A DNA stretch of 37,444 nucleotides from a virus. The position numbers and the translations under genes are program-made. Position 1 is the first letter of the stretch. The number at the start of each line of letters is the position of its first letter. Location: positions 1-37,444 of the IMG/VR virus record IMGVR_UViG_3300010885_061466; one strand, written 5' to 3'. Positions 3,001 through 37,161 of the stretch are shown piece by piece. The notes under the pieces were generated by a model. That model had not been told where the DNA came from. It ran no database searches and saw nothing but the letters and a program-made list of their open reading frames with translations.

Positions 3001-6000
3001 ATCTTCTGGATCAAGTGGTACATCCGGTGCTAATGGTTCAAGTGGAACGTCTGGATCAAGTGGTTCATCAGGATCATCAGGATCTGCTGGAACAAGTGGT
3101 GCTAATGGTTCATCTGGAACATCAGGATCTAGTGGATCTTCTGGAACATCAGGATCTAGTGGATCTTCTGGATCTTCTGGGTCATCTGGTTCATCTGGTT
3201 CTAGTGGAACATCTGGTACATCCGGATCTTCCGGTTCTAGTGGTTCATCAGGATCTAGTGGTACAAGTGGATCTTCTGGATCTAGTGGATCTTCAGGAAC
3301 TTCCGGTAGTTCAGGATCTAGTGGTACAAGTGGATCATCGGGAACAAGTGGATCTTCAGGAACAAGTGGGTCTTCAGGATCTAGTGGGTCTTCAGGATCA
3401 AGTGGTACATCAGGGTCTTCAGGGTCAAGTGGTTCATCAGGATCTAGTGGATCTTCTGGATCGAGTGGTACATCAGGGTCTTCAGGGTCAAGTGGTTCAT
3501 CAGGATCTAGTGGGTCTTCTGGATCTAGTGGTACAAGTGGTTCATCAGGATCTAGTGGGTCTTCTGGATCTAGTGGTACAAGTGGTACAAGTGGTTCATC
3601 AGGATCTAGTGGGTCTTCTGGATCTAGTGGTACATCAGGGTCTTCAGGATCTAGTGGGTCTTCTGGATCTAGTGGTACAAGTGGTAGTTCAGGTACATCA
3701 GGATCTTCAGGATCTAGTGGTACAAGTGGTAGTTCAGGATCTTCAGGATCGAGTGGATCTTCCGGATCTTCAGGAACAAGTGGATCATCAGGTAGTTCAG
3801 GATCTAGTGGGTCTTCAGGAACTTCTGGTTCTTCAGGAACTTCTGGTTCTTCTGGTTCTTCAGGATCTAGTGGATCTTCTGGATCTAGTGGTACATCAGG
3901 TAGTTCAGGATCTAGTGGATCTTCTGGATCTAGTGGTACATCAGGATCTTCTGGATCTAGTGGTACATCAGGATCTTCTGGATCTAGTGGTTCTTCAGGA
4001 ACAAGTGGATCTTCAGGAACTTCCGGTTCATCAGGATCTAGTGGATCTTCTGGATCTAGTGGTACATCAGGATCTTCAGGATCTAGTGGTACGTCGGGAT
4101 CTTCAGGATCTAGTGGATCTTCTGGATCTAGTGGTACATCAGGGTCATCTGGATCTAGTGGTACATCAGGATCTAGTGGTACATCAGGATCTAGTGGATC
4201 TTCTGGATCTAGTGGTACATCAGGGTCATCAGGATCTAGTGGATCATCAGGATCTTCCGGTTCTGCTGGAACATCTGGTTCTAGTGGAACATCTGGATCA
4301 AGTGGATCTTCTGGTTCTAGTGGAAGTTCAGGAACATCAGGATCTAGTGGAAGTTCAGGAACATCAGGGTCTAGTGGAACATCAGGATCTTCCGGTTCTG
4401 CTGGAACATCAGGAACATCCGGTACTAGAGGAACAAGTGGATCTTCCGGTACATCTGGATCTTCCGGTTCAAGTGGAACATCTGGTAATAATGGCTCATC
4501 TGGAACATCAGGTTCAAGTGGTTCATCAGGTTCAAGTGGAACATCAGGAACATCCGGTTCAAGTGGATCCTCTGGTTCATCAGGTTTAAGTGGAGTTAAT
4601 GGTATTGATGGATCTTCCGGTACATCAGGTGCTAATGGTTCATCAGGAACATCTGGCTCTAGTGGTTCATCTGGTACTTCAGGGTCAAGTGGTTCTGCTG
4701 GAACATCGGGTACATCTGGATCTTCCGGATCAAGTGGATCATCAGGATCTTCCGGATCAAGTGGTTCTGCTGGATCTTCGGGAACAAGTGGATCATCAGG
4801 ATCTTCCGGCTCTGCTGGATCTAGTGGTACATCTGGATCTTCTGGTTCTAGTGGTTCGTCCGGATCTAGTGGATCATCTGGTACATCTGGTGCTAATGGT
4901 TCATCAGGAACATCTGGATCTTCCGGTTCAAGTGGTTCAAGTGGTTCCTCTGGATCAAGTGGTTCCTCAGGAACATCCGGATCTAGTGGATCTTCTGGTT
5001 CTGCTGGTTCAAGTGGGTCTTCCGGTACTTCTGGAACATCCGGTACTTCTGGCACTAGAGGAACATCTGGATCGAGTGGAACATCTGGTTCTTCCGGATC
5101 ATCTGGATCAAGTGGAAGTTCAGGTTCAAGTGGTACATCTGGTAATAATGGTTCATCCGGTACATCTGGATCTTCGGGTTCAGCTGGGTCTTCTGGTTCA
5201 TCAGGATCTAGTGGATCTTCAGGAACATCTGGATCGAGTGGATCATCTGGATCAAGTGGAACATCCGGATCTTCGGGTTCATCTGGAACATCTGGGTCAT
5301 CCGGTTCAAGTGGTACTTCTGGATCAAGTGGAACATCTGGATCTTCAGGTTCATCTGGATCTTCTGGGTCATCAGGATCTGCTGGAACAAGTGGTAATAA
5401 TGGTTCATCCGGTACTTCTGGGTCAAGTGGATCTTCGGGTTCAGCTGGATCAAGTGGAACATCCGGTTCAAGTGGATCATCTGGTTCATCTGGATCTTCT
5501 GGAACAAGTGGTTCATCCGGTAGCTCAGGATCGAGTGGATCTTCTGGAACAAGTGGGTCTTCAGGATCTGCTGGAACAAGTGGTAATAATGGTTCATCTG
5601 GTACTTCTGGATCAAGTGGATCTTCTGGATCAAGTGGATCATCTGGTTCGTCTGGAACATCTGGATCTTCTGGAACAAGTGGTAATAATGGTTCATCTGG
5701 AACATCCGGATCTTCTGGTTCAAGTGGATCTTCTGGATCATCAGGAACAAGTGGATCTTCTGGAACAAGTGGTTCATCCGGTAGCTCAGGATCAAGTGGA
5801 TCTTCTGGAACAAGTGGTTCATCCGGTAGCTCAGGATCAAGTGGATCTTCTGGGTCATCAGGATCTGCTGGAACAAGTGGTAATAATGGTTCATCTGGTA
5901 CTTCTGGATCAAGTGGATCTAGTGGAACATCAGGTAATAATGGTTCAAGTGGAACATCTGGATCAAGTGGATCAAGTGGAACATCTGGATCAAGTGGAAC

Positions 6001-8032
6001 AAGTGGTTCCTCCGGTAGCTCAGGATCAAGTGGAACATCAGGTAATAATGGTTCATCTGGAACATCTGGGTCTTCAGGTTCATCTGGTTCAAGTGGATCA
6101 TCAGGATCTAGTGGAACATCAGGTAATAATGGTTCATCTGGTACATCCGGATCTTCTGGATCAAGTGGATCATCTGGGTCTAGTGGGTCATCTGGTACAT
6201 CAGGATCTAGTGGTTCATCAGGATCTAGTGGAACAAGTGGTAATAATGGTTCAAGTGGTACATCTGGTTCTAGTGGATCTTCTGGGTCTAGTGGGTCATC
6301 TGGTACATCAGGATCTAGTGGTTCATCAGGATCTAGTGGAACAAGTGGTAATAATGGTTCAAGTGGATCATCCGGTTCTAGTGGATCTTCTGGTTCTAGT
6401 GGATCTTCTGGTTCAAGTGGATCTTCAGGTTCTAGTGGCACTTCTGGCACTTCTGGAACATCCGGTACTAGAGGAACAAGTGGATCATCCGGTTCTAGTG
6501 GATCAAGTGGATCTTCTGGAACAAGTGGTACAACACCAGCTAATCAAGTATCAGGAACAGGATCTTTACCATATTTAGCTTATTGGAGTTCACAGACTAA
6601 TTTATTATCTACTAAACAACCAGCTACATTAGGATTCTATTTTGATAGTAGTTCTGGTAACAAATATGCGATAAACGGTAATACTGTTAGTACATCAACA
6701 CTTTCTATATTTAATAGCAATCTTGGAGTTTATATAACACCTCCTACGACAGTTACCTTAGGAACGACATTATTTACACAAGTTGATGGTGTTTTACACA
6801 ATCAATATGATATATCAGAGGGTTATATTCATTACTATTCTGGTGACTCATCTGATCCAAATACGAATTTATTCACATCACGAGTAGGTTCTGATCAGTG
6901 GTATGAGTTTGCTCCTGCTAACTATGGGGATATTACTAGTCTTAATAGTATGAAATTAAATATTAGTAAGTTTGGAGTTAGATTTGGAGCTTTTTCAGTT
7001 GGTGTTATAGCTAGTTCGGATATTCACGTTGGTTATAACAGCGAAAAAACAGGAACATTGGGATTTGATGGTCTGACCTCAGGTAAAGTTACGGTCACGG
7101 TTAATGACGTATCCGGTACTTGGACTATGACATTACCAGACACAGCTGGATCTTCTGGTCAATTCTTACAAACAGATGGTACCGGTATTACAACTTGGGC
7201 AACTGCTGGTGGCGGAGGTGGATTAACTGGTTCTGGTACGACAAACTACTTCCCAAGATGGACTGGAGTTTCTTCTTTATCATCTACTTCATCAATTTAT
7301 CAAGGAACTGAAAAAGTTGGTTTAATCGCAATGACATCACCAGCGGCTGAGTTACATATTGATAGAGGTACTGGTAATTCATCTTTCATTAAGTTCACTA
7401 CCGGAACTACTACTGGTCAAACTTCAACAGATGGTTTTGATATTGGTATTCAAGGAACAGGTATAGCAGAGATTAATCAAAGAGAAAACAATGACCTTGT
7501 AATCTACACAAATAACACAGAAAGAGTTAGAATATCTGGTTCTACTGGTTCATTTGAGTTTGGTGGTTCTGGTGTTGCTTCAAGAATAAATGAATTCTCA
7601 TTTGCTCCTTGGCAGTTCCAAGCAGGTACTCAAGGTACTGCTGAATACTCAAGAGTTATTTCTGGTACACAAACAAGTAACGGAACTTTAACAGAAATAT
7701 ACACAACAGGTAACTTAAATACAAACGCTAGAATTAGTATTCCAACTGGTAAGATTATTGGATTTAACTGTGATATTGTTGCTTATAATATCACATCTGG
7801 TTCTTCTTCCTATGTTAGACGAAGAGGTTTAATTAGAAACTTAGCTGGTACTACAGCTTTGATAGGTAGTATAACTACTGAAACAATACATTCTAATTTT
7901 GCGGCTGGATCTTCTGCATCGGTAAGTGCAGATAACACTAATGATGCCTTAGCTATTTTCGTTACCGGTGTTACTGGTCAAACTGTTAGATGGATGGTAA
8001 CCACAGAACTATATGAATTAGGATTCACATAA
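2..8032 (+). CDS. Giant collagen-like (Gly-X-Y) tail fibre protein, 5'-truncated by window edge
   Basis: The frame starting at base 2 stays open to the TAA at 8030-8032, giving at least 2676 residues; it has no ATG before 6950. That ATG is internal: codons upstream of it encode a continuous fold. Residues 1-21 are a non-repetitive end of an upstream domain. Residues 22-2178 are 719 Gly-X-Y triplets. Residues about 2179-2676 are globular and beta-rich, with a segment (GSGTTNYFPRWTG, then SPAAELHIDRGTG) of the type common in Bacteroidota phage fibres just before a C-terminal domain. The likely role is a long adhesive tail fibre or whisker that reaches the host surface, with the C-terminus as receptor-binding tip. 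The small fibre-like genes directly downstream support this. A virion surface decoration is an alternative. The true start lies outside the window. Confidence 0.85.
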   Translation, partial: GNGNFTSSINYTISFVIDGLNGSSGTSGTSGTSGSAGTSGTSGSSGTSGSSGSSGSSGTSGSSGSSGTSGSSGSSGSAGSSGSSGSSGSSGSSGTSGSSGSSGTSGTSGSSGSSGSSGSSGSSGSSGSSGNNGSSGTSGSSGSSGSSGTSGSSGTSATSGSSGSSGTSGSSGSAGSSGSSGSSGTSGTSGNNGSSGTSGSSGSSGSSGTSGSSGSSGSSGSSGSSGSSGTSGNNGSSGTSGSSGSSGSSGSSGSSGTSGNNGSSGTSGSSGSSGSSGSAGSSGTSGSSGSSGSSGSSGSSGTSGSSGSSGSSGSSGTSGSSGSSGSSGSSGSSGTSGANGSSGTSGTSGSSGSSGSSGSSGSSGSSGSSGSAGSSGTSGSSGTSGSSGSSGSSGSSGTSGSSGSSGSSGTSGTSGSAGTSGSSGTSGSSGSSGSAGSSGSSGTSGNNGSSGTSGSSGSSGSSGSSGSSGSSGSSGTSGSSGSSGSSGSSGTSGANGSSGSSGSSGSSGSSGTSGNNGSSGSSGSSGSSGSSGTSGSSGSSGTSGSSGSSGSAGSSGTSGSSGSSGSSGSSGSSGSSGTSGSSGSSGTSGSSGSSGSSGTSGSSGSSGSSGSSGTSGSSGSSGSSGSSGSSGTSGSSGSSGSAGSSGTSGSSGSSGSAGSSGSSGTSGANGSSGTSGSSGSSGSSGSSGSAGTSGANGSSGTSGSSGSSGSSGSSGSSGTSGSSGSSGTSGSSGTSGSSGSSGSSGSSGSAGTSGANGSSGSSGTSGSSGSSGSSGSSGTSGSSGSSGTSGSSGSSGSSGSSGSSGSSGSSGTSGNNGSSGTSGSSGSSGSSGSSGTSGSSGSSGSSGSSGSSGSSGSSGTSGSSGSSGSSGTSGNNGSSGTSGSSGSSGSSGSSGSSGSSGTSGSSGTSGSSGSSGSSGSSGTSGSSGSSGSSGTSGSSGSSGSSGTSGANGSSGTSGSSGSSGSSGSSGSAGSSGTSGSSGSSGSAGSSGSSGTSGSSGSSGSSGTSGANGSSGTSGSSGSSGSSGSAGTSGANGSSGTSGSSGSSGTSGSSGSSGSSGSSGSSGSSGTSGTSGSSGSSGSSGSSGTSGSSGSSGSSGTSGSSGSSGTSGSSGTSGSSGTSGSSGSSGSSGSSGTSGSSGSSGSSGSSGSSGSSGTSGSSGSSGSSGSSGSSGSSGTSGSSGSSGSSGSSGTSGTSGSSGSSGSSGSSGTSGSSGSSGSSGSSGTSGSSGTSGSSGSSGTSGSSGSSGSSGSSGSSGTSGSSGSSGSSGSSGTSGSSGTSGSSGSSGSSGSSGSSGTSGSSGSSGSSGSSGTSGSSGSSGTSGSSGSSGSSGTSGSSGTSGSSGSSGSSGSSGTSGSSGSSGTSGSSGSSGSSGSSGTSGSSGSSGTSGSSGTSGSSGSSGSSGTSGSSGSSGSSGSSGSAGTSGSSGTSGSSGSSGSSGSSGTSGSSGSSGTSGSSGTSGSSGSAGTSGTSGTRGTSGSSGTSGSSGSSGTSGNNGSSGTSGSSGSSGSSGTSGTSGSSGSSGSSGLSGVNGIDGSSGTSGANGSSGTSGSSGSSGTSGSSGSAGTSGTSGSSGSSGSSGSSGSSGSAGSSGTSGSSGSSGSAGSSGTSGSSGSSGSSGSSGSSGTSGANGSSGTSGSSGSSGSSGSSGSSGSSGTSGSSGSSGSAGSSGSSGTSGTSGTSGTRGTSGSSGTSGSSGSSGSSGSSGSSGTSGNNGSSGTSGSSGSAGSSGSSGSSGSSGTSGSSGSSGSSGTSGSSGSSGTSGSSGSSGTSGSSGTSGSSGSSGSSGSSGSAGTSGNNGSSGTSGSSGSSGSAGSSGTSGSSGSSGSSGSSGTSGSSGSSGSSGSSGTSGSSGSAGTSGNNGSSGTSGSSGSSGSSGSSGSSGTSGSSGTSGNNGSSGTSGSSGSSGSSGSSGTSGSSGTSGSSGSSGSSGSSGTSGSSGSSGSSGSSGSSGSAGTSGNNGSSGTSGSSGSSGTSGNNGSSGTSGSSGSSGTSGSSGTSGSSGSSGSSGTSGNNGSSGTSGSSGSSGSSGSSGSSGTSGNNGSSGTSGSSGSSGSSGSSGSSGTSGSSGSSGSSGTSGNNGSSGTSGSSGSSGSSGSSGTSGSSGSSGSSGTSGNNGSSGSSGSSGSSGSSGSSGSSGSSGSSGTSGTSGTSGTRGTSGSSGSSGSSGSSGTSGTTPANQVSGTGSLPYLAYWSSQTNLLSTKQPATLGFYFDSSSGNKYAINGNTVSTSTLSIFNSNLGVYITPPTTVTLGTTLFTQVDGVLHNQYDISEGYIHYYSGDSSDPNTNLFTSRVGSDQWYEFAPANYGDITSLNSMKLNISKFGVRFGAFSVGVIASSDIHVGYNSEKTGTLGFDGLTSGKVTVTVNDVSGTWTMTLPDTAGSSGQFLQTDGTGITTWATAGGGGGLTGSGTTNYFPRWTGVSSLSSTSSIYQGTEKVGLIAMTSPAAELHIDRGTGNSSFIKFTTGTTTGQTSTDGFDIGIQGTGIAEINQRENNDLVIYTNNTERVRISGSTGSFEFGGSGVASRINEFSFAPWQFQAGTQGTAEYSRVISGTQTSNGTLTEIYTTGNLNTNARISIPTGKIIGFNCDIVAYNITSGSSSYVRRRGLIRNLAGTTALIGSITTETIHSNFAAGSSASVSADNTNDALAIFVTGVTGQTVRWMVTTELYELGFT
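65..6535 (+). repeat. 719 tandem Gly-(Ser/Thr)-Ser triplet codon repeats
   Basis: A 9-bp periodic coding repeat in which Gly codons stay in one phase (positions 2 mod 3) throughout. Nearly all triplets are GSS or GTS. Minor types are GSA, GNN and GAN (both usually followed by GSS), and GTR at 4421, 5051 and 6464. A single conventional-looking stretch, GLS-GVN-GID, lies at 4583-4609. No proline occurs in the triplets I read. Serine codons vary freely (TCT, TCA, TCC, TCG, AGT), so the DNA is less repetitive than the protein. The triplet vocabulary leaves other frames open by chance on both strands. Confidence 0.9.
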
Positions 8033-10586: not shown

Positions 10587-11348
10587 ATGGAAATCAGAAA
10601 ATATTTTGAATTTGTTAAAAGTGATTTTGATGCTATAAAATCATTCTACATAAAAGATGAGTTATCTCAAAAAGTTTGGGATGATTTTAAATTAAAAGAT
10701 GAAATAAAAGAACAATTAATTACAATTGGTCAAGACTTTTTTGAGAAGATAGAAATTGAAGTTGATGTTAAAGATATAGTATTTTGTGGATCTCTTTGTA
10801 ATTATAATTGGTCTGAAAATTATTCAGACTTTGACTTACATATTATCATAGACTTTAATGATGTTAATGAAGACTATGAATTAGTTGAAAAGTTATGTGA
10901 TTATGCTAAAAAAATGTGGAACTCACAACATGATATTAAAATAAAAGGATATGATGTTGAAATCGCTATACAAGATGAGAATGATTTAAGTGAAACTTTA
11001 AAAACAACAAGAATGGGTGGTGTTTATTCTTTATTAAATAATAAATGGATAAAAAAACCTACTAAAGTTGAATTTGAACCAGATGAGAATCTAATTAAAG
11101 AAAAGTCTAAAACTTTAATGATGAAAATAGATGATATTGAGGAATCCGATAATATAGATTATGATGATTTAAAAGAAAAAACTGATTCTGTTTGGAAAAA
11201 AATAAAAGATTTTAGAAAATCTGGTTTAGAAAGTGAGAGTGGTGAATTCTCTATCGGTAATTTAGTATTTAAATTACTTAGAAGAAATGGATACATCTCT
11301 AAAATTATGGAAATTAAAAAAGATTCATACGATAAACAATTTAAATAA
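10587..11348 (+). CDS. Nucleotidyltransferase-fold protein
   Basis: A 253-residue protein with the signature of the pol-beta/MNT nucleotidyltransferase superfamily. VFCGSLCNYNWSENYSDFDLH supplies the GS dipeptide and the spaced D-x-D metal ligands, followed by a third strand with KGYDVEIAIQ. Residues around SLLNNKWIKKP form a block that I associate with similar predicted nucleotidyltransferases of large phages. The target (tRNA, protein or small molecule) is not evident. An AT-rich box (10573-10583) lies four bases before the ATG. Confidence 0.6.
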   Translation: MEIRKYFEFVKSDFDAIKSFYIKDELSQKVWDDFKLKDEIKEQLITIGQDFFEKIEIEVDVKDIVFCGSLCNYNWSENYSDFDLHIIIDFNDVNEDYELVEKLCDYAKKMWNSQHDIKIKGYDVEIAIQDENDLSETLKTTRMGGVYSLLNNKWIKKPTKVEFEPDENLIKEKSKTLMMKIDDIEESDNIDYDDLKEKTDSVWKKIKDFRKSGLESESGEFSIGNLVFKLLRRNGYISKIMEIKKDSYDKQFK

Positions 11349-11349
11349 A

Positions 11350-12051
11350 ATGATAAAGATATCTGAAATAGAAGAAATATTTAATGAAGTATTTGATGAG
11401 GAAAAAGGGATGGTAAACTCAGTTGAGACAGTTTATGAGAAGCCTGATGAAGAATCAGATTTTCTAAAATTGATAATATCTATACACGGATTAGCAACAG
11501 AAGATGTTTCTATTATACATACAAAGTTTATATTTAAATGTGATTTAGGAAAAAGAAATATTATAGACAAATCATTTATTTATCTTTTTGATATCAACTG
11601 TGTTTATCACAAAATGGAATTTAGAAATATTTTAGATTTAAAGACTAAAATAGAAGACATTATTGACTCTAATAATTTTGGATCTGATTTGCAAATCCTT
11701 TCAGATTTTATTGAAGCTCCAGCAATGTTCTTAAATTATTATATGCGTAGAGCAAAAATCACAGATTATTCAATTTTTGATGTTGAATATACGCCTAAGT
11801 TTAAAACAACACCTTGTGATAAAACCACTTTTGATTTTAAATTTAACATCAATAATAACTATGATATGGAATTATCTATTTCTAAGGTAGATAGAGCGAG
11901 TGATGCTGAGGATAATATAGATACATATAAATTTCAATTCCGTTTTATGGATGAAATACAAACTGTTGAAACAGATACTCTTAAAAACTTTCACTATTTT
12001 ATAGGTAGTAATATCGCAAAAATATTAGATAGAAAATTAAAGAATAAATAA
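11350..12051 (+). CDS. Hypothetical protein, 233 aa
   Basis: I chose the ATG at 11350, two bases after the upstream stop, over the in-frame ATG at 11287 that would overlap the previous gene by 62 bases. The product is acidic and mixed alpha/beta (ISEIEEIFNEVFDEEKG near the start) with no motif I recognise. Its stop overlaps the next start (TAATG at 12049-12053), indicating an operon running from about 9615 to 12710. Confidence 0.5.
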   Translation: MIKISEIEEIFNEVFDEEKGMVNSVETVYEKPDEESDFLKLIISIHGLATEDVSIIHTKFIFKCDLGKRNIIDKSFIYLFDINCVYHKMEFRNILDLKTKIEDIIDSNNFGSDLQILSDFIEAPAMFLNYYMRRAKITDYSIFDVEYTPKFKTTPCDKTTFDFKFNINNNYDMELSISKVDRASDAEDNIDTYKFQFRFMDEIQTVETDTLKNFHYFIGSNIAKILDRKLKNK

Positions 12052-12710
12052 TGAAACATCTAACTAAGTTCATTAATTACTTAAATGAGTCTGTCGAAGA
12101 TATAACTGATTTAACTAAAGAAGAGTTAGATGAGTTACTCATTCCTATTACAGATTTAGGTATTGAGTATTCCTTAACTGATTCCAGAACTATAACATCT
12201 GGTGATTTTTCTGGTTTTAAAACAATGAATATAAATTTTAGGCATTATTTCCAATTAGGAGAAGCCGGTGGTTATACTGAGCAAATAATAGATACAAAAT
12301 TTTGGGATTTTTTAGAAGAACTCATATCTCTAAAAAATCGTTTAGAAAGTGTAAGAGTTTCGATTAATACTAACTGGAGACATAATATAGTTGTTACTTT
12401 TATACAAAAGACCAAGGTTGAAGGTGACCTATTTTTAGTTCAACAACTTTATAATGAGATGAATAAAAGAACAAATGTTTCTAAAAGTGATTTTACAAAT
12501 AACATGACTAAGAAGTTAGACAAAGAAAATTTAATAATCACTGTTAACTGTAATGGTAGTTTGGAATCAGCTTCATACACAGATAGAAAATGGAATGGTC
12601 TTTTCAGAGGTATAGACTTTTCTAAATTCAATGTTGAAAAGGAAATTACTGAAGATAGATTTGGTAGTAAATCAGCCGTTGTTACAATTAATTTAAAAAG
12701 TAATCTGTAA
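12051..12710 (+). CDS. Hypothetical protein with short MKHLTKF..LNES leader
   Basis: A 219-residue protein starting inside the previous stop codon. Its first residues (MKHLTKFINYLNESVED) form a short amphipathic leader ending in NES. Similar leaders occur on the NFACT-R protein (MIKRYNSFNESKK) and the isochorismatase-fold protein (MKFLKTFESHSNG). They recall the N-terminal capsid-targeting sequences of T4 internal proteins (MKTYQEFIAEA). The remaining sequence is mixed alpha/beta without a known domain. It could be an injected internal protein, but this is inference. Confidence 0.5.
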   Translation: MKHLTKFINYLNESVEDITDLTKEELDELLIPITDLGIEYSLTDSRTITSGDFSGFKTMNINFRHYFQLGEAGGYTEQIIDTKFWDFLEELISLKNRLESVRVSINTNWRHNIVVTFIQKTKVEGDLFLVQQLYNEMNKRTNVSKSDFTNNMTKKLDKENLIITVNCNGSLESASYTDRKWNGLFRGIDFSKFNVEKEITEDRFGSKSAVVTINLKSNL

Positions 12711-13229: not shown

Positions 13230-13730
13230 ATGATAACCAAATTTCAAGGAAGATGGCATTTCCTATCTAACTTTTATCCATGTGAGATTGAACATAAAGG
13301 AATTAAATATCCTTCTGTTGAACACTACTATGTTGCTATGAAAGTAACCGAGATTCAACTATTTGACGGTGTTCATTATACAGCTGGTGATTTTAGAGAG
13401 TTAATATCTAAAGTTAAGTTACCAGGTGATGTAAAAAAAATTGGACAAAGAGTTAAAATAAGAAAAGATTGGGATGATAAGAAACTTCAATTTATGGAAT
13501 GGGGTGTTAGAGAGAAATTTAAGGATCCTAAAATCGCTGATTTGATGTTACTTACTGGAGTTCAGGATATGATTGAGACTAATTGGTGGCATGATAATTT
13601 CTGGGGTTCTTGCTCTTGTCCTAAATGTGGTGATAGTGGTCAGAATAATTTAGGTAAGATTTTAATGACTATAAGGTCCGAGATAAGACAAAATGTAAAA
13701 CCACTGGAAGAACAAATTAAAAGTAAATAA
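13230..13730 (+). CDS. NADAR-domain (YbiA-like) protein
   Basis: A 166-residue single-domain protein. Family hallmarks are visible in order: FQGRWHFLSNFYPCEI near the N-terminus, KYPSVEHYYVAMK, GQRVKIRKDW, an ETNWWHDNFWGSC block near residue 115-125, and NNLGKILMTIRSEI at the end. NADAR proteins act on ADP-ribose-containing or N-glycosidic substrates. Some members are reported to remove ADP-ribose from guanine and to act as antitoxins of DarT-like toxins. In a phage this suggests counter-defence or NAD-derivative metabolism. A CPKC pair is inserted in the C-terminal part. It is the first gene after the tmRNA terminator. Confidence 0.85.
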   Translation: MITKFQGRWHFLSNFYPCEIEHKGIKYPSVEHYYVAMKVTEIQLFDGVHYTAGDFRELISKVKLPGDVKKIGQRVKIRKDWDDKKLQFMEWGVREKFKDPKIADLMLLTGVQDMIETNWWHDNFWGSCSCPKCGDSGQNNLGKILMTIRSEIRQNVKPLEEQIKSK

Positions 13731-15990: not shown

Positions 15991-16020
15991 AATCTCAGAG
16001 AAATCTGAGATTTTTTTTTA
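15991..16020 (+). terminator. Intrinsic terminator with GAAA tetraloop
   Basis: AATCTCAGA (15991-15999), loop GAAA, TCTGAGATT (16004-16012), then a long T-run. It ends the plus-strand block. The upstream A-run could let it also work for the converging minus-strand operon. Confidence 0.85.
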
Positions 16021-16527
16021 GAATGGTGCTTCGTCATCATATAAACCTTCGTCATATAAGAAAGAAAAAACTATAGTAGGTTTTGACATCTTGTCTAATT
16101 TATCCCAAGTATCATACATTTCTACTTCTGAGTCATATTGAGCAAGTATATCTTTTTTAAGTTTATTTGCTACCTCAAAAACTTTGATAACTTCTTTAAG
16201 TTCCTCTCTTCTATTTAAAGTAACTGTTATTGTTATGTCCATTTTTATTGTTTCAACAATAACATTGTCAATTCCTGAGTTTCTGAACATTTTTCTAAGC
16301 ATAGAGTTTAGATTTTCTACTTCATCGTCTTCGTTATATGATGAATCATCATCGTCATATGAAGTTGAGTCATCATCATAATCATAACCCCAATCATCAA
16401 AGTCGTCTTTTTTATTTTTGTCTAATTTATCATTCATCCAAGCGTCTTCATCTTCTCTATGTTTAGAATCATCATCATCATTATCCTCAAAGAATCTCCA
16501 ATGTTCTAAGTATTTTTTAATTTTCAT
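16018..16527 (-). CDS. Acidic hypothetical protein ending in DDEAPF
   Basis: A 169-residue protein. The start (MKIKKYLEHWRFFEDN) resembles the short leader seen on other proteins here. Residues about 14-70 are extremely Asp/Glu-rich and probably disordered. Residues 75-160 look like a folded alpha/beta domain (NVIVETIKMDITITVTLNRR, then a long helix). The terminus DDEAPF resembles the acidic peptide with Pro-Phe that ends bacterial SSB proteins. It starts one base after the peptidase stop, so it belongs to that operon. The function is unknown; an acidic DNA mimic is one idea. Confidence 0.55.
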   Translation of the reverse strand: MKIKKYLEHWRFFEDNDDDDSKHREDEDAWMNDKLDKNKKDDFDDWGYDYDDDSTSYDDDDSSYNEDDEVENLNSMLRKMFRNSGIDNVIVETIKMDITITVTLNRREELKEVIKVFEVANKLKKDILAQYDSEVEMYDTWDKLDKMSKPTIVFSFLYDEGLYDDEAPF

Positions 16528-17923: not shown

Positions 17924-18313
17924 TTAAATAATAACTTCTTCGGAATTGTTATAATCTACTTTTACTTGACCATCATTCATCCCAGGTTCTTTTTTCACAA
18001 ATCTAGACTGACAATAAACAACAGTTACATCATTTTCTTTATTTGCTTTACTGTTTTTCTTTGCTAATTCAGCTGCGTATTTGATTACTTCTGGTGTTGG
18101 TAGATTCTCTCTTACTCTAATTACAACGTGACTTCCTGGAAATCCTTTTGCGTGCATCCAAATATCTTCTTTATCAGCTACATTAAATGTTAGGTAATCA
18201 TTTGATTTAGCATCTCTACCAATAAATATTGTATATCCAAAGTATTCCTTTTTCTGAATACTTGGAAATTTATCCTTTTTTGATTCGTTAAAACTATTAT
18301 ATCTTTTAATCAT
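17924..18313 (-). CDS. Stand-alone NFACT-R (RqcH C-terminal-type) domain protein
   Basis: A 129-residue protein. After a leader (MIKRYNSFNESKK) comes one NFACT-R domain: FGYTIFIGRDAKSNDYLTF, the hallmark DIWMHAKGFPGSHVVIR, a helix with AAELAKKNSKA, and VVYCQSRFVKKEPGMNDGQVK. In RqcH, Rqc2 and NEMF this domain is the C-terminal part of a large protein that binds obstructed 50S subunits and recruits tRNA-Ala to add C-terminal Ala tails. The NFACT-N and helical parts are absent here, so it cannot be a complete RqcH. It might block host RqcH, bind tRNA or rRNA, or act with the phage tmRNA. Stand-alone NFACT-R proteins exist in some microbes but I know of no characterised phage example. It heads an operon with the peptidase. 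Confidence 0.88.
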   Translation of the reverse strand: MIKRYNSFNESKKDKFPSIQKKEYFGYTIFIGRDAKSNDYLTFNVADKEDIWMHAKGFPGSHVVIRVRENLPTPEVIKYAAELAKKNSKANKENDVTVVYCQSRFVKKEPGMNDGQVKVDYNNSEEVII

Positions 18314-18316
18314 ATC

Positions 18317-18328
18317 TTATATATTAAA
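18317..18328 (-). promoter_or_regulatory. AT-rich box three bases before the NFACT-R start
   Basis: On the minus strand it reads TTTAATATATAA, ending three bases before the ATG. If it is a -10-type element, transcription would start at or next to the start codon. Confidence 0.45.
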
Positions 18329-18336
18329 TTATTTAA

Positions 18337-18370
18337 AACAATAAAACCCTCATATGAGGGTTTTATTGTT
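18337..18370 (-). terminator. Perfect 34-bp palindrome, bidirectional-type terminator
   Basis: The segment is its own reverse complement: AACAATAAAACCCTC on the left, ATAT at the centre, and the mirror on the right. It is GC-rich in the middle with flanking A and T runs. It lies downstream of the minus-strand gene at 18386-19048 and separates it from the NFACT-R operon. Confidence 0.75.
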
Positions 18371-19179: not shown

Positions 19180-20928
19180 TTAGTTAAGGAAGCCAGCAGC
19201 ATCTTTAACTTTGATAGTCATAAACTGCTTTTGTGGGAACCAACCAACTTCAGCAACTGCGTATCTTGAACGTAACAACATTCTTGGTGCGAATGTAGCT
19301 TCAGAGATAACAGAGATTGACTGAGCCATTAAGTAAGGTACGAAAATGATACCTGGTTGGTCAGGATTGTTCTTTCTACCAAGAACGATTCTGTTGTCAT
19401 TATATTTCATATATGGATCAACGTAGATAGAGATATCTCCGATTGAACCTACAGGGTATAATTGTCCAGATGCGTTCAATTTAGATCTAACTGGATTGAT
19501 AGTGTAACCAGCGATGTCTTGAAGAGATGCAGCAAGACCTCCGTTAGTAATTACATACTGAGCTGGACCTACACGACCTTCAGTTGCGATGTAGTTAGAA
19601 GCGTGAGCAATCTTAGTGATAAGCTTACGTTGTACAGCGTGAGTAGTTTCACCACCGATACCACCACTTAAAGTAACGTAGTTAGTATCTAAGTCAAAGA
19701 TAGTTTGACCAGTGATACCTGGAGAAGCAGCACCTGTGTAAAGAGGAGCAGCTGTTCTGTTAAGATCACCCATCTCGAAAATCTTAGCAACGATTTGTCT
19801 AGAGATTGTTTGAGAAAGTTCGTTAACAAGAATACTTTCCATTTTTTGTACGATATCCATACCAGTGTTAGCTTTGATATCTTCGATTTCAGTTCTTCTA
19901 AGAGCTGAAGATACTTCAACAGTACCAACTGCGATTGATTTAGAAGAGATTTTTGGTCCGATTACACCAGCATAACTGTTGTCATCAGCCTCACGACTCA
20001 TTGGGTATTGACCATTGAATCCAGAACCAGCTTGAGTCCAGTTTGCAGAGAAACCTGGGATGTGGTCTTCAAGAGCTGATATTAATTCGATAGATGCGAA
20101 TCCTGATCCAATTGCAACACCAGCGATAGAAGTGATTTGTGAAATCATTGACGTGTTAGCAGCGAATGTGTTTCTGTTTTGATCAAATCCCCACGTAGCT
20201 GGAGTTGGAGTAGTAGTATAAGGATTAGTTCCTGTGTGAGATGTGTTAGCTTGTCTGTAAGTCTTAAACATTGGGAAACCATCGATACGAGAGAATCCTA
20301 AGAATTCAACAACTTCTTGTTTAGATGCAGTTGCATTTAATGTAGTAGATACAGTGAATCCTAAGTTCAATACACCTGTAGTACCTATAGAGTAATAGTA
20401 AGGTCCGTTTTGTAAACCACCAGAAGACTGAAGAACAGTAGCACCGTTTCCAGTTAACATTGCCGTAGCAAGTGCAGATGCAGTAGCACCAGCGTTTAAC
20501 TTGAATACTTGTGGTCTTTCGTCAGCGTTTCCTAAGTTAGAATCATCATAACGGAAATCTACGTAAAGTAAATCGATTTTTGGACCTGGAGTAGGTTTAA
20601 CAGCTACTAAATCTAAACCGATTGTTTGAGCTGCTATTTTCATAGCTACTGGTAAAAGGTTTTGACCAACATCTCCTGAACCTAAAGTTCCTGAGTTTGA
20701 TGACCAATTTGTTCCTAATGTGCTACCTGCTAATGAAGAAGGATTTGGTGCTGTAACAGCTCCCATACCTGAAACGTTAGAAGCGTTAACATATGCGTTT
20801 TCGTTGATTGAGTGAAATTCGGCATATTCAGCCATCCATTCAACTCTTTCACCTGTAACACCCATGTTTTCCAAAACTGGAGACCACTTCTTGATAGCTT
20901 TTGATTTGTCTATTCTAATGTGTGACAT
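19180..20928 (-). CDS. 23: Major capsid protein, T4 gp23-like
   Basis: A 582-residue protein. The N-terminus (KAIKKWSPVLENMGV) matches the T4 gp23 prodomain pattern (KAELLNKWKPLLEGEG). The centre has SALRRTEIEDIKANTGMD and a helix with SILVNELSQTISRQIV, the gp23 HK97-fold spine. The C-terminal part has ISIYVDPYMKYNDNRIVLGRK and the P-domain-like PYLMAQSISV and SRYAVAEVGWFP. T4 gp23 is about 520 residues, so this version has insertions, for example around residues 130-290. It forms the icosahedral head lattice. The prohead protease probably removes an N-terminal propeptide; WMAE and SINE near residues 30-43 are possible cut sites. The gene is flanked by its own terminator and an AT-rich promoter-like box, consistent with high late expression. 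Confidence 0.92.
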   Translation of the reverse strand: MSHIRIDKSKAIKKWSPVLENMGVTGERVEWMAEYAEFHSINENAYVNASNVSGMGAVTAPNPSSLAGSTLGTNWSSNSGTLGSGDVGQNLLPVAMKIAAQTIGLDLVAVKPTPGPKIDLLYVDFRYDDSNLGNADERPQVFKLNAGATASALATAMLTGNGATVLQSSGGLQNGPYYYSIGTTGVLNLGFTVSTTLNATASKQEVVEFLGFSRIDGFPMFKTYRQANTSHTGTNPYTTTPTPATWGFDQNRNTFAANTSMISQITSIAGVAIGSGFASIELISALEDHIPGFSANWTQAGSGFNGQYPMSREADDNSYAGVIGPKISSKSIAVGTVEVSSALRRTEIEDIKANTGMDIVQKMESILVNELSQTISRQIVAKIFEMGDLNRTAAPLYTGAASPGITGQTIFDLDTNYVTLSGGIGGETTHAVQRKLITKIAHASNYIATEGRVGPAQYVITNGGLAASLQDIAGYTINPVRSKLNASGQLYPVGSIGDISIYVDPYMKYNDNRIVLGRKNNPDQPGIIFVPYLMAQSISVISEATFAPRMLLRSRYAVAEVGWFPQKQFMTIKVKDAAGFLN

Positions 20929-21007: not shown

Positions 21008-23131
21008 TTAAATGTTTCTGAATCTTTCTAAGATAGATTGAGCTTCTTTATCTGAAAGTTTATCCTCTTGGATTAAAGCTTCATGAGAAACCAATTTCTT
21101 AGTAACTGATTCATTTTTCTTCAGATTTCTTGTTGACCAAAAATGTTCAACTTGAGATTCTGTCATTAAAACTTCTTCAGGGTAAAGTCTAGCTTGTGAT
21201 AAGATAGATTTTTTACCAGATTCAGTTAAATTTTCCCAGACTGGCTTAACGTTTTCGGGCATCAATCTGATTACTCTTTCTTCAAGAGTTTCGTTTTTAG
21301 TTGATAGTGCTTCAGAGATTAGACTTAATACATCCTTAGATGTGAAATAACTTCTTTCGTTTATGTGAAGTTTAACAGTTTCCTGTTCGTCGTCTGATAG
21401 TGCATAAAAACTATCTACTTGTGACTTGTTTAAGAACTTTAAGAAGTTCAAGTCGGTTGTTTCAGAAACTTTACGTTTTTTAGCTTCTTCAATAAGTTTA
21501 TTAATTGATTCGGATAATTCAGAATCTTCGTGTCCACCAACTTCATAGTTATGTGAATGAACTTCTTCTTCATTTTCTTCATTTTCATCTTTGTGTGAAT
21601 GAACGTGTGATGGATTTACTTCAGTAACTCCATTGTATTCATTTTCTTCTTCATTTTCTTCGTGAGACTCTTGGTTATAAGCTTCTTCATCATTCTCTTC
21701 GTTTTCATCTTCAACATTTTCAAATCCTGCTGCTGATAAAGAAGGGAATGCATCTTCTGTTGATTCGTTTAATTTACCACCATTTAATTTTTCAACAATC
21801 ATTCCTTGGTAGTTAATTGATTTGTCAAGATTTTCAGCGATATACTCAGAGTAAGCAATATTATCATCTAAGTGTTCAGCGATGTATTCAGCGTAAGCGA
21901 TGTTTCCTTCAACGTGCTCAGCTAAGTATTCAGAATAAGCAATTGAGTTATCAACGTGCTCAGCTAAGTATTCAGAATAACCAATGTTCTTATCTAAGTT
22001 TTCAGCGATGTATTCAGAATAAGCGATATTCTTATCTAAATTCTCAGCTAAATACTCAGAGTATTCAATGTTTTTATCTAAATTTTCAGCTAAGTATTCA
22101 GAGTAAGAAATGTTTTTATCTAAATTTTCAGCGATATACTCAGAATAGTTAATGTTCTTATCTAAGTTTTCAGCTAAATACTCAGAGTATTCAATGTTCT
22201 TATCTAAGTTTTCAGCTACATACTCAGAATAGTTAATAGCTTTCTCAAGATTTTCAGCTAAATAATCATTGTGTTTAACTAATTTCTCAGTAGTTGTTCT
22301 AAGAGTTTTATTTTCATTTACTATTATCTGAACTTTTTCAGCTAAATAGTCAAGATATTTAACAACTTGAGAATTAGAGCTATTTAGCTCTTCATAATAC
22401 TCTAAAAGTTGTTCTAGTTTCTTAGGAGTTAAGTTACCCTTAGAAATTGCCGATTTGACTTCTTTCTTAGTAGTAGCAAGTTCATTTACTAAATACTTAG
22501 AATAATCAGTCAACTGTTTTTTTGTAACAAAGTCGTTTGTGTTCATGTTGAATAATTCATTTATTTTTGACTCATCGGACATTTCATATATCCTAAAGTT
22601 AGATTTTGGGTCGTTGTAACCTAATGACTCGTTTAATACTTTAACACTCATTTTTGCAGATGCAAATCCTGGGTCAGCAACGATGTCATATGTGAATAAT
22701 TTTTTAAGTGAAACAGAACCATCAGACTCTGTGATACCCGCTGCTCTTGAAGATACAAACACAGGACATCCGTCATCAACTAATGCCTTTGCTTCTTTTC
22801 CCCAATAAGTACTAAGTAATTGGATTTCACCAGAAACAATATTCTGTTCTTTGATGTATTCGGCTTTTTTGATTATGTGAGAAGCTCTCGCCAAAGAGGT
22901 GTCAAAAACATCTGGGTGGTCGAACTCACCATAAACAGCACCTAAGCTGCTCATTCTTTCATTTAACTCATTCAAAGCTGGTAAGAATTTATCTGCAGTG
23001 TAAATACGTTCATTACGATTTTTTACGCCAAATTCTGTGAACGTACCACCTAATACATATTTTCCATTTGTAGAGGAATTTTCTCTTATCAGTGAATTAG
23101 TTGAGTTTTCTACTATTAAAACTGGTTTCAT
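21008..23131 (-). CDS. 21: Prohead protease (gp21-like) fused to a repeat-containing scaffold-like region
   Basis: A 707-residue protein. Residues 1-170 match the T4 gp21 serine protease family: GGTFTEFGVKNRNERIY, then GEFDHPDV with the catalytic His (about H72), then VFVSSRAAGI with the catalytic Ser (about S127/128), then YDIVADPGF. T4 gp21 is about 212 residues. Here about 500 more follow: helices (200-290), eleven 14-residue repeats (291-444), a very acidic His-containing linker (470-540) and a helical C-terminus (545-707). The extension resembles a scaffold core protein. T4 uses separate gp21 and gp22; here one chain may serve both roles and be destroyed by self-cleavage. The gene precedes the capsid gene, as gp21-22-23 do in T4. 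Confidence 0.88.
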   Translation of the reverse strand: MKPVLIVENSTNSLIRENSSTNGKYVLGGTFTEFGVKNRNERIYTADKFLPALNELNERMSSLGAVYGEFDHPDVFDTSLARASHIIKKAEYIKEQNIVSGEIQLLSTYWGKEAKALVDDGCPVFVSSRAAGITESDGSVSLKKLFTYDIVADPGFASAKMSVKVLNESLGYNDPKSNFRIYEMSDESKINELFNMNTNDFVTKKQLTDYSKYLVNELATTKKEVKSAISKGNLTPKKLEQLLEYYEELNSSNSQVVKYLDYLAEKVQIIVNENKTLRTTTEKLVKHNDYLAENLEKAINYSEYVAENLDKNIEYSEYLAENLDKNINYSEYIAENLDKNISYSEYLAENLDKNIEYSEYLAENLDKNIAYSEYIAENLDKNIGYSEYLAEHVDNSIAYSEYLAEHVEGNIAYAEYIAEHLDDNIAYSEYIAENLDKSINYQGMIVEKLNGGKLNESTEDAFPSLSAAGFENVEDENEENDEEAYNQESHEENEEENEYNGVTEVNPSHVHSHKDENEENEEEVHSHNYEVGGHEDSELSESINKLIEEAKKRKVSETTDLNFLKFLNKSQVDSFYALSDDEQETVKLHINERSYFTSKDVLSLISEALSTKNETLEERVIRLMPENVKPVWENLTESGKKSILSQARLYPEEVLMTESQVEHFWSTRNLKKNESVTKKLVSHEALIQEDKLSDKEAQSILERFRNI
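21800..22261 (-). repeat. Eleven 42-bp repeats encoding 14-residue helical units
   Basis: Unit consensus is (L/I)AENLDKNIxYSEY, residues 291-444 of the protease-scaffold protein. All units are exactly 14 residues with no indels. Units eight to ten switch to AEHVD/AEHLD, and the last unit decays to IAENLDKSINYQGM. The 14-residue period (two heptads) and regular Leu/Ile/Tyr spacing suggest a continuous helix or coiled coil of defined length. Confidence 0.9.
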
Positions 23132-30171: not shown

Positions 30172-31272
30172 ATGAAAATTAAATTAGAGTACATTTGGTT
30201 AGATGGGTCTGAGCCCCAACAACTCAGGAGTAAAACTAAAATTGTTGATAATGTGGATTCAATGACACCATCTGACTATTCTGTTTGGTCATTTGATGGA
30301 AGTTCAACATTACAAGCAAAAGCCGGAAAAGGTGAAAACACTGACTGTTTATTGAAACCTGTATTTGTGACATATGATCCATTTAGAAAAGGTCCAAACA
30401 AATTAGTTTTTTGTTCTGTATTGAATCCGGACGGAACACCACATTCATCAAATATGAGACACAAATTGGCTCAAAAAACATCTGAACTTGGTTTAAATAA
30501 ACTTGAAAAGTCAGAATCGCCATGGTTTGGTTGGGAACAAGAATATACTCTTACTCATAAACCTGAGGTTCCATTTGGAATAGGAGAAGGTATTCCATTA
30601 GGATTCACTTTAGATCCACACTCAGGATATTTATCAAACACACCAAGACCACAAGGTGATTACTATTGTGGTATCGGAGCAGACTCTGTGGTTGGTAGAG
30701 AAATCGTAGAAGAACATATGAGTATGTGTATGGAAATCGGATTGGAAATTTCTGGAATCAATGCTGAAGTTTTATTAGGACAATGGGAGTATCAAATTGG
30801 TCCAGTAACACCACTGAATGGATCTGACCAAATGTGGGTTTCGAGATATATTCTACAAAGAGTTGCTGAAAAATGGAATACAAATGTGTCTTTCCATCCT
30901 AAACCGTTAAAGGGTGATTGGAATGGAACTGGATGTCATGTTAATTTCTCTACTAAAGAAATGAGAGAAGAAGGTGGATTAGATATCATCAAAGAAACTA
31001 TGTCAAAATTAGAAGAAAATCATAACAAACACATTGAGGTTTATGGACTTTTCAATGATATGAGATTGACTGGAGAACATGAAACATCTTCAATTCATGA
31101 TTTTAGTTATGGATTTAGCACAAGAGACACTTCAATTCGTATTCCAGCTCAATCAATCGTTGAAGGAAAAGGATATTTTGAGGATAGAAGACCATCATCA
31201 AACTGTGATCCTTATTTAGTTGCTGAAAGAATGTTACAAACTGTTTATTCTGAAGTTGAAACTGAAGCTTAA
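30172..31272 (+). CDS. glnA: Glutamine synthetase type II (eukaryote-type)
   Basis: A 366-residue full-length GSII. Motifs in order are WSFDGSSTLQA (about 39-49), DPFRKGPNKLVFC, WFGWEQEYTL (E122/E124 metal ligands), YYCGIGADSVVGREIVEEH, INAEVLLGQWEYQIGP (E199/E206), GDWNGTGCHVNFSTKEMRE (ATP/Glu site, H256) and GYFEDRRPSSNCDP. All key residues known for the family appear present, so it is probably active, making glutamine from glutamate, ammonia and ATP. Flavobacteria carry GSII-like enzymes, so a host origin is plausible. It is transcribed alone between minus-strand genes with its own terminator. It may support nucleotide synthesis in infected cells. Confidence 0.95.
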   Translation: MKIKLEYIWLDGSEPQQLRSKTKIVDNVDSMTPSDYSVWSFDGSSTLQAKAGKGENTDCLLKPVFVTYDPFRKGPNKLVFCSVLNPDGTPHSSNMRHKLAQKTSELGLNKLEKSESPWFGWEQEYTLTHKPEVPFGIGEGIPLGFTLDPHSGYLSNTPRPQGDYYCGIGADSVVGREIVEEHMSMCMEIGLEISGINAEVLLGQWEYQIGPVTPLNGSDQMWVSRYILQRVAEKWNTNVSFHPKPLKGDWNGTGCHVNFSTKEMREEGGLDIIKETMSKLEENHNKHIEVYGLFNDMRLTGEHETSSIHDFSYGFSTRDTSIRIPAQSIVEGKGYFEDRRPSSNCDPYLVAERMLQTVYSEVETEA

Positions 31273-35858: not shown

Positions 35859-36557
35859 ATGAAAGTATGTAGTAAATGTAAAGAAGAAAAAGAGATATCT
35901 AAATTCTCAAAAAGATCGGATTCTAAAGATGGGTATAGATCTCAGTGTAAAAATTGTGTGAATACTCAGGTGTCAAAAGATAGAGTCAATAAGTATTATA
36001 AAGATAATCGTGATATTCTATTGAGTAAGAGTAAAGAAAGAAAATTAAAAAAATATGATCCGAATTCAAAAATCAGAACAATTAGGAGAATGTTTGATTC
36101 TTGTGATGTGAATCAAAGTGTTTGTACAAAATGTATGAATATAAAAGGTATAGAAAATTTTATAAAAGACAAGAGTAGAAAAAATGGATTATCCGCTCAA
36201 TGTAATGAGTGTAAAAATAAATACTACAAAAATAAGAAAAAGAATGATATTATATTCAAATTATCGACAACTATAAGAAGTATGATATCATCTTATATAA
36301 AATCAAACGGTATTAAAAAGTCAAAAAAATCTGAGGAAATAATTGGATGTGAATTCAAAGACTTGAAAATTCATTTAGAATTGAAATTTAAAGACGGTAT
36401 GACTTGGAAAAACTATGGAATGTGGCATATAGATCATATAATACCAATAAGTTATGCTAAATCAGACGAGGAAATATATAAATTAAATCATTATAGTAAT
36501 TTCCAGCCATTATGGGCAAAAGATAATTTATCTAAAGGAAATAGATTTATTGGATAG
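35859..36557 (+). CDS. HNH homing endonuclease, free-standing
   Basis: A 232-residue basic protein with two zinc-finger-like cysteine clusters, each built as CxxC...CxxC (VCSKCKEEKEISKF ... CKNC; VCTKCMNIKGIENF ... CNEC). These are DNA-binding modules typical of phage endonucleases. The C-terminal HNH nuclease has WHIDHIIP, the NHYSNFQPLWAKDN helix and KGNRF. It sits between the baseplate gene and an opposing gene, overlapping the latter's end by 11 bases. It is a mobile element by family behaviour. Confidence 0.85.
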   Translation: MKVCSKCKEEKEISKFSKRSDSKDGYRSQCKNCVNTQVSKDRVNKYYKDNRDILLSKSKERKLKKYDPNSKIRTIRRMFDSCDVNQSVCTKCMNIKGIENFIKDKSRKNGLSAQCNECKNKYYKNKKKNDIIFKLSTTIRSMISSYIKSNGIKKSKKSEEIIGCEFKDLKIHLELKFKDGMTWKNYGMWHIDHIIPISYAKSDEEIYKLNHYSNFQPLWAKDNLSKGNRFIG

Positions 36558-37161
36558 GGCAACTTGTGGCGGTATAGATATATTTCCAATCTCTCTTTAT
36601 CTCAACACCTAAAGATGTTGCAGCTGTATAAATATCCTCTAGACATTCACTATCAGCGCCCCCCACTATAGTAACCATTCTCCCTTTTAAGCTTGAAAGT
36701 AAATCATATAGTTTTTTACTAAGGTGGTGCCACTTATGATTATTACCAACATATACAATAAACGTTCCTTCCTTAGTTTGAAATATATCTCCTTTTCTAA
36801 GTGATTTCTCCTCTTCTCCTTTACTAATTTCATCATAGACCGACTTGTCTAAAATTCTTTTGTAGAAATCAGCGTCAACATCATAGTTATATCTTTTTTC
36901 AATTAAATCCTTTTGATTTGGAAAATGATAAAGGTCATCATGTATTGGAATTTCAGGAGTTTCATCATATAAATAGTCTTTATCTACATTTCTACCATCC
37001 ACATGATTGTCCCACAATTGATAAACACTTTGAAAGTTATTACAATACTTCTTTAATTCATTCAAATACATCTCTGAGAAGTATTTCTTGAATGACTTCT
37101 GAACATCAACTATAATTAATATTCCATTACTATGACTCTCAAATGTTTTAAGGAATTTCAT
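36547..37161 (-). CDS. Isochorismatase-fold cysteine hydrolase-like protein
   Basis: A 204-residue protein. After a short leader (MKFLKTFESHSNG) comes ILIIVDVQKSF, the first strand of the isochorismatase-like family with its catalytic Asp (D19). Near the end VTIVGGADSECLEDIYTAA carries the likely nucleophile Cys (C173) in the family pattern 'G...d.CV..TA'. The central part is more divergent and I cannot place the catalytic Lys with certainty. Relatives hydrolyse isochorismate, nicotinamide or carbamoyl compounds, so NAD metabolism is one possible role alongside the NADAR protein. The leader resembles those of other proteins here. Confidence 0.65.
   Translation of the reverse strand: MKFLKTFESHSNGILIIVDVQKSFKKYFSEMYLNELKKYCNNFQSVYQLWDNHVDGRNVDKDYLYDETPEIPIHDDLYHFPNQKDLIEKRYNYDVDADFYKRILDKSVYDEISKGEEEKSLRKGDIFQTKEGTFIVYVGNNHKWHHLSKKLYDLLSSLKGRMVTIVGGADSECLEDIYTAATSLGVEIKRDWKYIYTATSCPIQ

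Follow-up and report, generated by a model that had tools for sequence, protein, structure and literature searches.

A stand-alone NFACT-R domain with a T4-like leader in huge phages: a candidate internal head protein

Why would a phage keep, among its head genes, the last domain of the ribosome quality-control factor RqcH and nothing else of it? The window analysed here (the whole stretch of 37,444 nucleotides, virus record IMGVR_UViG_3300010885_061466 of IMG/VR) encodes such a protein on its minus strand. An earlier note, made from the sequence alone, had described it as a stand-alone NFACT-R domain with a leader peptide, without the parts needed for RqcH activity and followed by a metallopeptidase. 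The gene and its predicted products are as follows.

17924..18313, minus strand: NFACT-R gene, 129 aa (Pfam PF05670, 61.6 bits; AlphaFold2 model matched by Foldseek to RqcH)
17927..18283, minus strand: predicted mature protein, a short linker plus the NFACT-R domain, pI about 8.9
18284..18313, minus strand: leader MIKRYNSFNE, residues 1-10, a capsid-targeting-like propeptide with a predicted cut after Glu10

NFACT-R_1 (PF05670) spans residues 26-119 with E=1.3e-16 and 61.6 bits (cut-off 29.8), covering model positions 10-110 of 112, and NFACT-R_2 likewise scores above its Pfam cut-off. In NCBIfam, it is the C-terminal end of EfbA/RqcH that matches, with scores far under the full-length cut-offs (RqcH_arch, 25.3 bits vs a cut-off of 400). 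Profile search of PDB sequences gave RqcH of B. subtilis (E=5e-22), then FBPS and CCDC25. The AlphaFold2 model has a mean pLDDT of 87.9, with 104 residues at 90 or higher; residues 1-14 are disordered and the domain is modelled confidently, with pLDDT >90 over most of it. When the model was compared with the PDB by Foldseek, the best match was RqcH (8s1u, E=3.4e-11, TMq 0.78), followed by FBPS, CCDC25 (E=4e-9) and Rqc2/NEMF. Pfam found no NFACT-N, HhH, coiled coil or M domain in the 129-aa ORF, so the parts that RqcH uses for tRNA selection and 50S anchoring are missing, as the earlier note had said. No family competing with NFACT-R appeared in Pfam or NCBIfam, so the outcome that the earlier note had named as refuting, a higher score for a different family, did not occur. 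A stand-alone NFACT-R domain in a phage is thus borne out by Pfam, NCBIfam, the fold and the virus record.

The phage protein shares the NFACT-R sequence and fold with RqcH, Rqc2 and NEMF and keeps the signature NDxLT...DIWMHxKGxPGSHVVIR. It differs from them in being the last domain alone, with a phage leader added. The residues conserved throughout the phage family are G32, N38-D39, L41-T42, D50, W52, H54, K56-G57 and P59-G60. Since these are the NFACT-R signature itself, selection seems to be preserving the binding surface of the domain. In RqcH, NFACT-R is found by the A-site finger of the 50S subunit, with poor resolution; the tRNA is held by NFACT-N and HhH, and the stalk base by the M domain (PMC8012679, PMC8373112). 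CCDC25 and other stand-alone relatives resemble the phage protein in having NFACT-R without NFACT-N, but they are cellular and have no leader; by its PDB titles, the structure of CCDC25 was solved with DNA. Because the 50S and tRNA contacts of RqcH are mainly made outside NFACT-R, a free NFACT-R domain could compete weakly, or could bind tRNA, rRNA or DNA by itself.

The earlier note had suggested a competitor of RqcH or an anti-Ala-tailing factor. One possible role is that of a dominant-negative competitor, injected or made late, that would occupy the NFACT-R site on the obstructed 50S subunit and block Ala-tailing. The phage domain has the signature residues of RqcH and lacks the tRNA-selecting parts, and the NFACT-R domain of RqcH is located near the A-site finger (PMC8012679). 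A target would commonly be available: an NFACT-R protein occurs in 221 of 297 Bacteroidota-phylum genomes (74%), most often in a frame of 500-600 aa, the size of RqcH, and the relatives above 634 kb are predicted to infect Bacteroidetes (PMC7162821). However, as RqcH holds the 50S subunit and tRNA mainly through NFACT-N, HhH and the M domain, a lone NFACT-R may compete poorly, and we consider this role unlikely. Action against RqcH is possible as one among several downstream options for an injected NFACT-R protein.

The leader offers a different kind of evidence. T4 internal proteins II and III both start with MKTYQEFIAE, which is annotated as a signal peptide (our IPII query matched the database entry at 100% across its first 86 residues). 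Residues 4 and 7 of the T4 leader serve capsid targeting and residues 8 and 10 serve processing (PMC9026906). With a slash marking the cut, MIKRYNSFNE/S and MKTYQEFIAE/A both have a pair of aromatics spaced by three, followed by Glu and a small residue; the match is inexact, as the distance from second aromatic to Glu is one residue shorter in the phage protein. Read from its letters, then, this is a leader of about 10 residues with the targeting aromatics and the P1 Glu of a T4-type capsid targeting sequence (CTS), at a spacing shorter by one. The exact T4 spacing is found on other proteins of these phages, such as MIKKYLQFIKE and MKLKKYKQFIKE.

We aligned 54 distinct NFACT-R homologues. Glu10 is present in 53 of 54, the aromatic at position 8 in 53 and the aromatic at position 5 in 47, and the residues between these positions vary. 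The pattern [FY]xx[FY]..E/[SG] is near-universal among them, which bears out the leader peptide of the earlier note. Leader types within the family include MIKKFNSFNE, MKYLKYFE, MRNLKKFNNFLKE and MKHISNFKLYLE.

The neighbourhood of the gene is T4-like. The nearest named relatives of the window are the metagenomic phages LR745206 (634,780 bp) and LR756502 (642,428 bp), and complete genomes of 634 and 642 kb have been described as Mahaphages with Bacteroidetes hosts (PMC7162821). The relevant features of the window are listed below.

21008..23131, minus strand: prohead protease fused to scaffold, 707 aa (phrog_207 head maturation protease, E=1.6e-28)
19180..20928, minus strand: major capsid protein (MCP), gp23 family (Pfam Gp23, E=2.4e-28)
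18340..18367, strand not assigned: perfect hairpin AATAAAACCCTCATATGAGGGTTTTATT, terminator-like, between the NFACT-R gene and the upstream gene, read from sequence
18318..18325, minus strand: AATATATA element, T4-late-promoter-like, 12 nt ahead of the NFACT-R start codon
16529..17887, minus strand: M20/M28-like metallopeptidase, 452 aa, without leader, the conserved next gene (phrog_4191, E=1.3e-65)
16018..16527, minus strand: 169-aa acidic protein with leader-like N-terminus MKIKKYLEHWRFFED (LR745206 orthologue, MKINKYKKFLEK)

As in T4, the protease, scaffold and MCP are encoded together, here beside the NFACT-R gene; the Peptidase_S77 match in the 707-aa protein (E=0.0019) is below the Pfam cut-off. 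Besides the gp23 MCP and the protease/scaffold fusion, the window has a portal-type gene, named from its position and size, in common with LR745206. The order scaffold/protease, MCP, NFACT-R, peptidase, 169-aa protein is identical across 43 loci as far as each extends, and the peptidase adjoins the NFACT-R gene in all 43. The earlier note had placed a metallopeptidase downstream in the same operon. It is there, 36 nt past the NFACT-R gene and on the same strand, though with a promoter-like AATATATA of its own.

The AATATATA element looks like a T4-type late promoter. This element or TATATATA also precedes the MCP, scaffold, portal and gp25-like genes, and neither type is found ahead of the RNase R and glutamine synthetase genes. 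In LR745206, AATATATA occurs at 54 of 112 genes for leader-bearing proteins (defined below) vs 127 of 771 other ORFs.

The same Glu-containing motif recurs in the head proteins themselves.

20800..20802, minus strand: Glu43 of the MCP, predicted propeptide cleavage site [FY]HSINE/NAY
21830..22357, minus strand: eleven scaffold repeats with Y-x-x-Y-[ILV]-A-E, mostly of 14-aa period, carrying the leader motif

The six residues of INE/NAY (residues 41-46) are invariant in 63 of 63 MCPs, and this is predicted to be the sort of site expected for propeptide removal. Because the scaffold repeats contain the leader motif, they suggest that the leader works by imitating the prohead core. In the window (21008-23131) the repeats take the form YSEY[IL]AENLDKNI. 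In LR745206, an 84-aa ORF (460435-460686), away from the protease fusion, is likewise built of scaffold-type repeats. LR745206 also encodes short proteins (291407-291880, 554784-555284 and 93266-93520) that lack the capsid body but have, behind a leader, either the N-terminal region of the MCP (its residues 8-121 or 30-87) or its SGMGAV stretch; the MCP propeptide may serve them for targeting.

We then counted the leader across whole proteomes. In LR745206, 93 of 883 ORFs fit a strict leader pattern, vs 2.0 +/- 1.4 (maximum 8) when their N-termini were shuffled 300 times. The first of these figures is fitted, as the patterns were written after viewing the LR745206 list; the other records are a partly independent check. 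Only 6 of 3186 internal methionines of LR745206 fit. The 93 ORFs fall into 82 clusters without detectable body similarity. A second, T4-spaced pattern added 19 ORFs, giving 112. Other related records show a similar excess (9/95 vs 0.35, 9/66 vs 0.20, 3/21 vs 0.09 and 5/57 vs 0.23). A looser pattern was dropped as too permissive (142 ORFs vs 52 in shuffles) and replaced by these stricter ones. The window itself has 2 of 37 vs 0.17, and three further proteins are leader-like by eye. Its leader-bearing or leader-like proteins include the following.

36547..37161, minus strand: MKFLKTFES, isochorismatase-like by eye, without Pfam match
12051..12710, plus strand: MKHLTKFINYLNES (LR745206 counterpart, MKHLTQFFDYIKES)
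10587..11348, plus strand: nucleotidyltransferase-like protein with leader-like start MEIRKYFEFVKSD (MTPAP-like palm, E=0.0028, below cut-off)

Many LR745206 leader proteins have a weak body motif, DI..EL.D.GF.V.I, and otherwise little detectable similarity. Examples from the LR745206 loci L125-L156 are L154:16245-16655, L126:17041-17391 and L156:5486-5935. They may belong to a single large family of small injected proteins that evolves fast.

Such a shared N-terminus could have another meaning, for instance a signal to a different phage compartment or an effect on translation start, which would make the NFACT-R protein an ordinary late cytoplasmic protein. The function of the leader is, after all, read from sequence alone, and more than 100 packaged proteins far exceeds what has been described for T4-like phages. 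Gene fusions bear on this directly. In a 476-kb phage (L328/L346), a 2H/Acb1-like phosphoesterase and a DEDDh exonuclease are separate nearby genes, each with a leader. In LR745206 (448257-449573; L327/L345), both are in one ORF with a single N-terminal leader, and the junction still reads INE/NKMWYK, as in the separate leader-bearing gene. NFACT-R fusions behave in the same way, with junctions INE/SK in L036 and FNE/GK in LR756502 and no start codon at that point. The Glu site would be kept inside fusions because the cleavage site is under selection; a start-codon effect does not explain it. As a non-capsid leader also leaves the scaffold repeats, the MCP site and the T4 resemblance unexplained, we regard this reading as very unlikely.

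Leaders also change type on a constant body. The TOPRIM protein starts with MIIKKYIKFINEE, MKYLRTYEG and MRYLKLYEE in three phages, with the same body soon afterwards, and RNA ligase orthologues keep a leader while its type is swapped. A leader on a DNA primase had looked like counter-evidence; this was rejected, as the protein is a 193-aa TOPRIM-only protein with a leader in all three phages.

Because the leader resembles the T4 CTS and stands on about 100 unrelated proteins of a related phage, which the earlier note had not recognised, the leading reading is a virion-packaged, injected protein. We propose that the NFACT-R gene encodes an internal head protein of the T4 kind, which the prohead protease would cut and which would enter the host with the DNA to bind RNA, tRNA or stalled 50S subunits there, and we give this a probability of about two in three. 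The gene is probably transcribed late, alongside the head genes, as its promoter-like element supports. The leader, a copy of the aromatic-xx-aromatic..Glu motif of the scaffold, would dock the protein into the prohead core. The scaffold-linked protease would then cut after Glu10, freeing the 119-residue NFACT-R domain in the head. By analogy with T4, the domain would be injected along with the DNA. In the host it may bind what the NFACT-R end of RqcH binds (RNA, tRNA or 50S complexes) and so protect or redirect translation when infection starts. Packaging in the head is well supported as a prediction; the action in the host we infer from the domain.

T4 provides the model for what leader proteins may do. 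Its Ip1-3 have the leader alone in common, are injected and inhibit type IV restriction enzymes (PMC12373910). Like T4 IPI-III and Alt, the proteins described here have unrelated bodies behind a short leader, in which the two aromatics are three apart and the cut site has Glu. There are several differences. The body of the phage protein is NFACT-R, unlike those of IPII and IPIII; about 100 proteins have the leader here compared with a handful in T4 (at least 10 are reported in T-evens, PMC12373910); leaders come in two or three types; and scaffold and protease form one protein, in which the scaffold consists of leader-like repeats.

What else would be injected? The 112 leader proteins of LR745206 match 20 Pfam families and a size-restricted sample of 112 other ORFs matches 101, a comparison in which the direction alone is meaningful as the two samples differ in length range. 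By Pfam and PHROGs, the leader set includes an RNA ligase (T4 Rnl1 type), a poly(A)/CCA polymerase, a 2'-5' RNA ligase/2H protein with an Acb1-like match, NUDIX, DHH, a DnaQ-type exonuclease, peptidase M15, methyltransferases and NFACT-R. The match to Acb1 falls short of the cut-off in LR745206 and exceeds it in the two other huge phages. The other ORFs include tRNA synthetases, Clp protease, PhoH, IMPDH and DNA methylases. RNA repair also occurs outside the leader set, since the leaderless proteins include RNA ligases of another family, PF09414. A PADLOC scan of the leader proteins found little.

The NFACT-R protein would thus be one item of an injected set together with RNA-repair and 2H/Acb1-like proteins. 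In its widest form, the proposal is that huge Bacteroidota phages load about 100 different proteins through one scaffold-mimicking peptide and inject them as a set, including the RqcH-derived domain, an RNA ligase, a CCA-adding enzyme and a 2H/Acb1-like protein, which would meet host translation and RNA-based defences before phage gene expression. We judge the chances of this wider proposal to be about even. Against a counter-defence theme, most leader proteins have no known domain, and the theme is carried by about 10 of the 112. If it is true, the internal-protein principle of T4 grows from a handful to about 100 proteins and gains a new kind of cargo, a domain of a quality-control factor so far studied in cells. 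One short sequence rule would also list the injected proteins of the largest known phages straight from metagenomes, where few isolates exist and most genes of huge phages have no assigned function. The leader variants are short and portable.

A wider scan yielded 55 distinct homologues. NFACT-R is near the MCP in 62 of 80 MCP loci. Five of the remaining 18 end too early to judge. In the 13 records with enough downstream sequence, no recognisable NFACT-R was found in 12, and one has a copy elsewhere, with leader type MKYLKTYNE. The idea that NFACT-R is universal in the clade was therefore rejected. This distribution bears on whether the protein instead has a structural job inside the head, such as binding the packaged DNA or RNA or aiding assembly of the prohead core, with no task in the host. 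The head-operon position, the wide retention, the basic pI (8-9.5) and the DNA complex of CCDC25 would suit such a role. Retention in most close relatives also counts against our preferred reading, as this is more the pattern of a core component than of a counter-defence gene with rapid turnover. However, the twelve MCP-bearing records without a recognisable copy, three of which may have a diverged version without the signature, indicate that the canonical NFACT-R form is not indispensable, and a purely structural role seems to us rather improbable.

Those three records have a leader-bearing protein of 158-165 aa in the slot between MCP and peptidase.

L300:9064-9561: slot protein, past an inserted 716-aa ORF
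L301:6780-7256: slot protein, directly in the slot
L313:6759-7235: slot protein, directly in the slot

Pfam gave no match for the slot protein, and it was first thought unrelated to NFACT-R. Profile and model comparisons suggest otherwise: hhalign against the NFACT-R profile gives a probability of 79% (E=1.6e-5), and a low-confidence model (pLDDT 68) matches CCDC25 and RqcH. This suggests a strongly diverged NFACT-R fold that has lost the DIWxHxKGxPGSH signature. If so, the slot position would be old, with the binding surface kept in one branch and remodelled in another.

In a tree, the phage NFACT-R sequences group in a single clade (100/91), placed on the side of Bacteroidota; the branch to any donor is long and we are unsure of it. 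The 80 bacterial loci returned are RqcH-type and nearly all of RqcH length. Two short leaderless ORFs with a stand-alone NFACT-R domain, L338 (128 aa) and L339 (127 aa), occur in Bacteroidota-phylum genomes, so the stand-alone form is not unique to phages. Phage-database matches named Listeria, Enterococcus and Helicobacter were set aside, as they seem to come from host RqcH genes on flanking or unannotated DNA. BFVD holds small viral models of 105-171 aa with the same stand-alone fold (M1HME1, M1ICD2, M1HE72, A0A0P0YM59, A0A0P0C2D5, V5LR89 and others), probably from algal giant viruses, suggesting that the NFACT-R domain has been captured repeatedly by viruses. A search of open-access full text for NFACT-R together with phage gave no earlier report, although a ribosome-rescue review matched; the search for capsid targeting sequences in jumbo phages gave SPN3US studies alone. 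No isolate of this clade and no mass spectrometry of its virions came to light.

Other genes of the window were noted in passing. A leaderless NADAR-type protein (13230-13730) scores 77.5 bits with the riboflavin intermediate N-glycosidase model (cut-off 73.7) and also resembles an NADAR anti-phage protein. A GlnII-type glutamine synthetase (30172-31272) matches with E=2.4e-119, below the equivalog cut-off; glutamine synthetases have been reported in aquatic Bacteroidota moraphages (PMC12619734). Positions 2-8032 hold a fibre-like ORF with about 2000 residues of GSSGTSG repeats, and the long antisense ORFs in that region are probably artefacts of the repeats.
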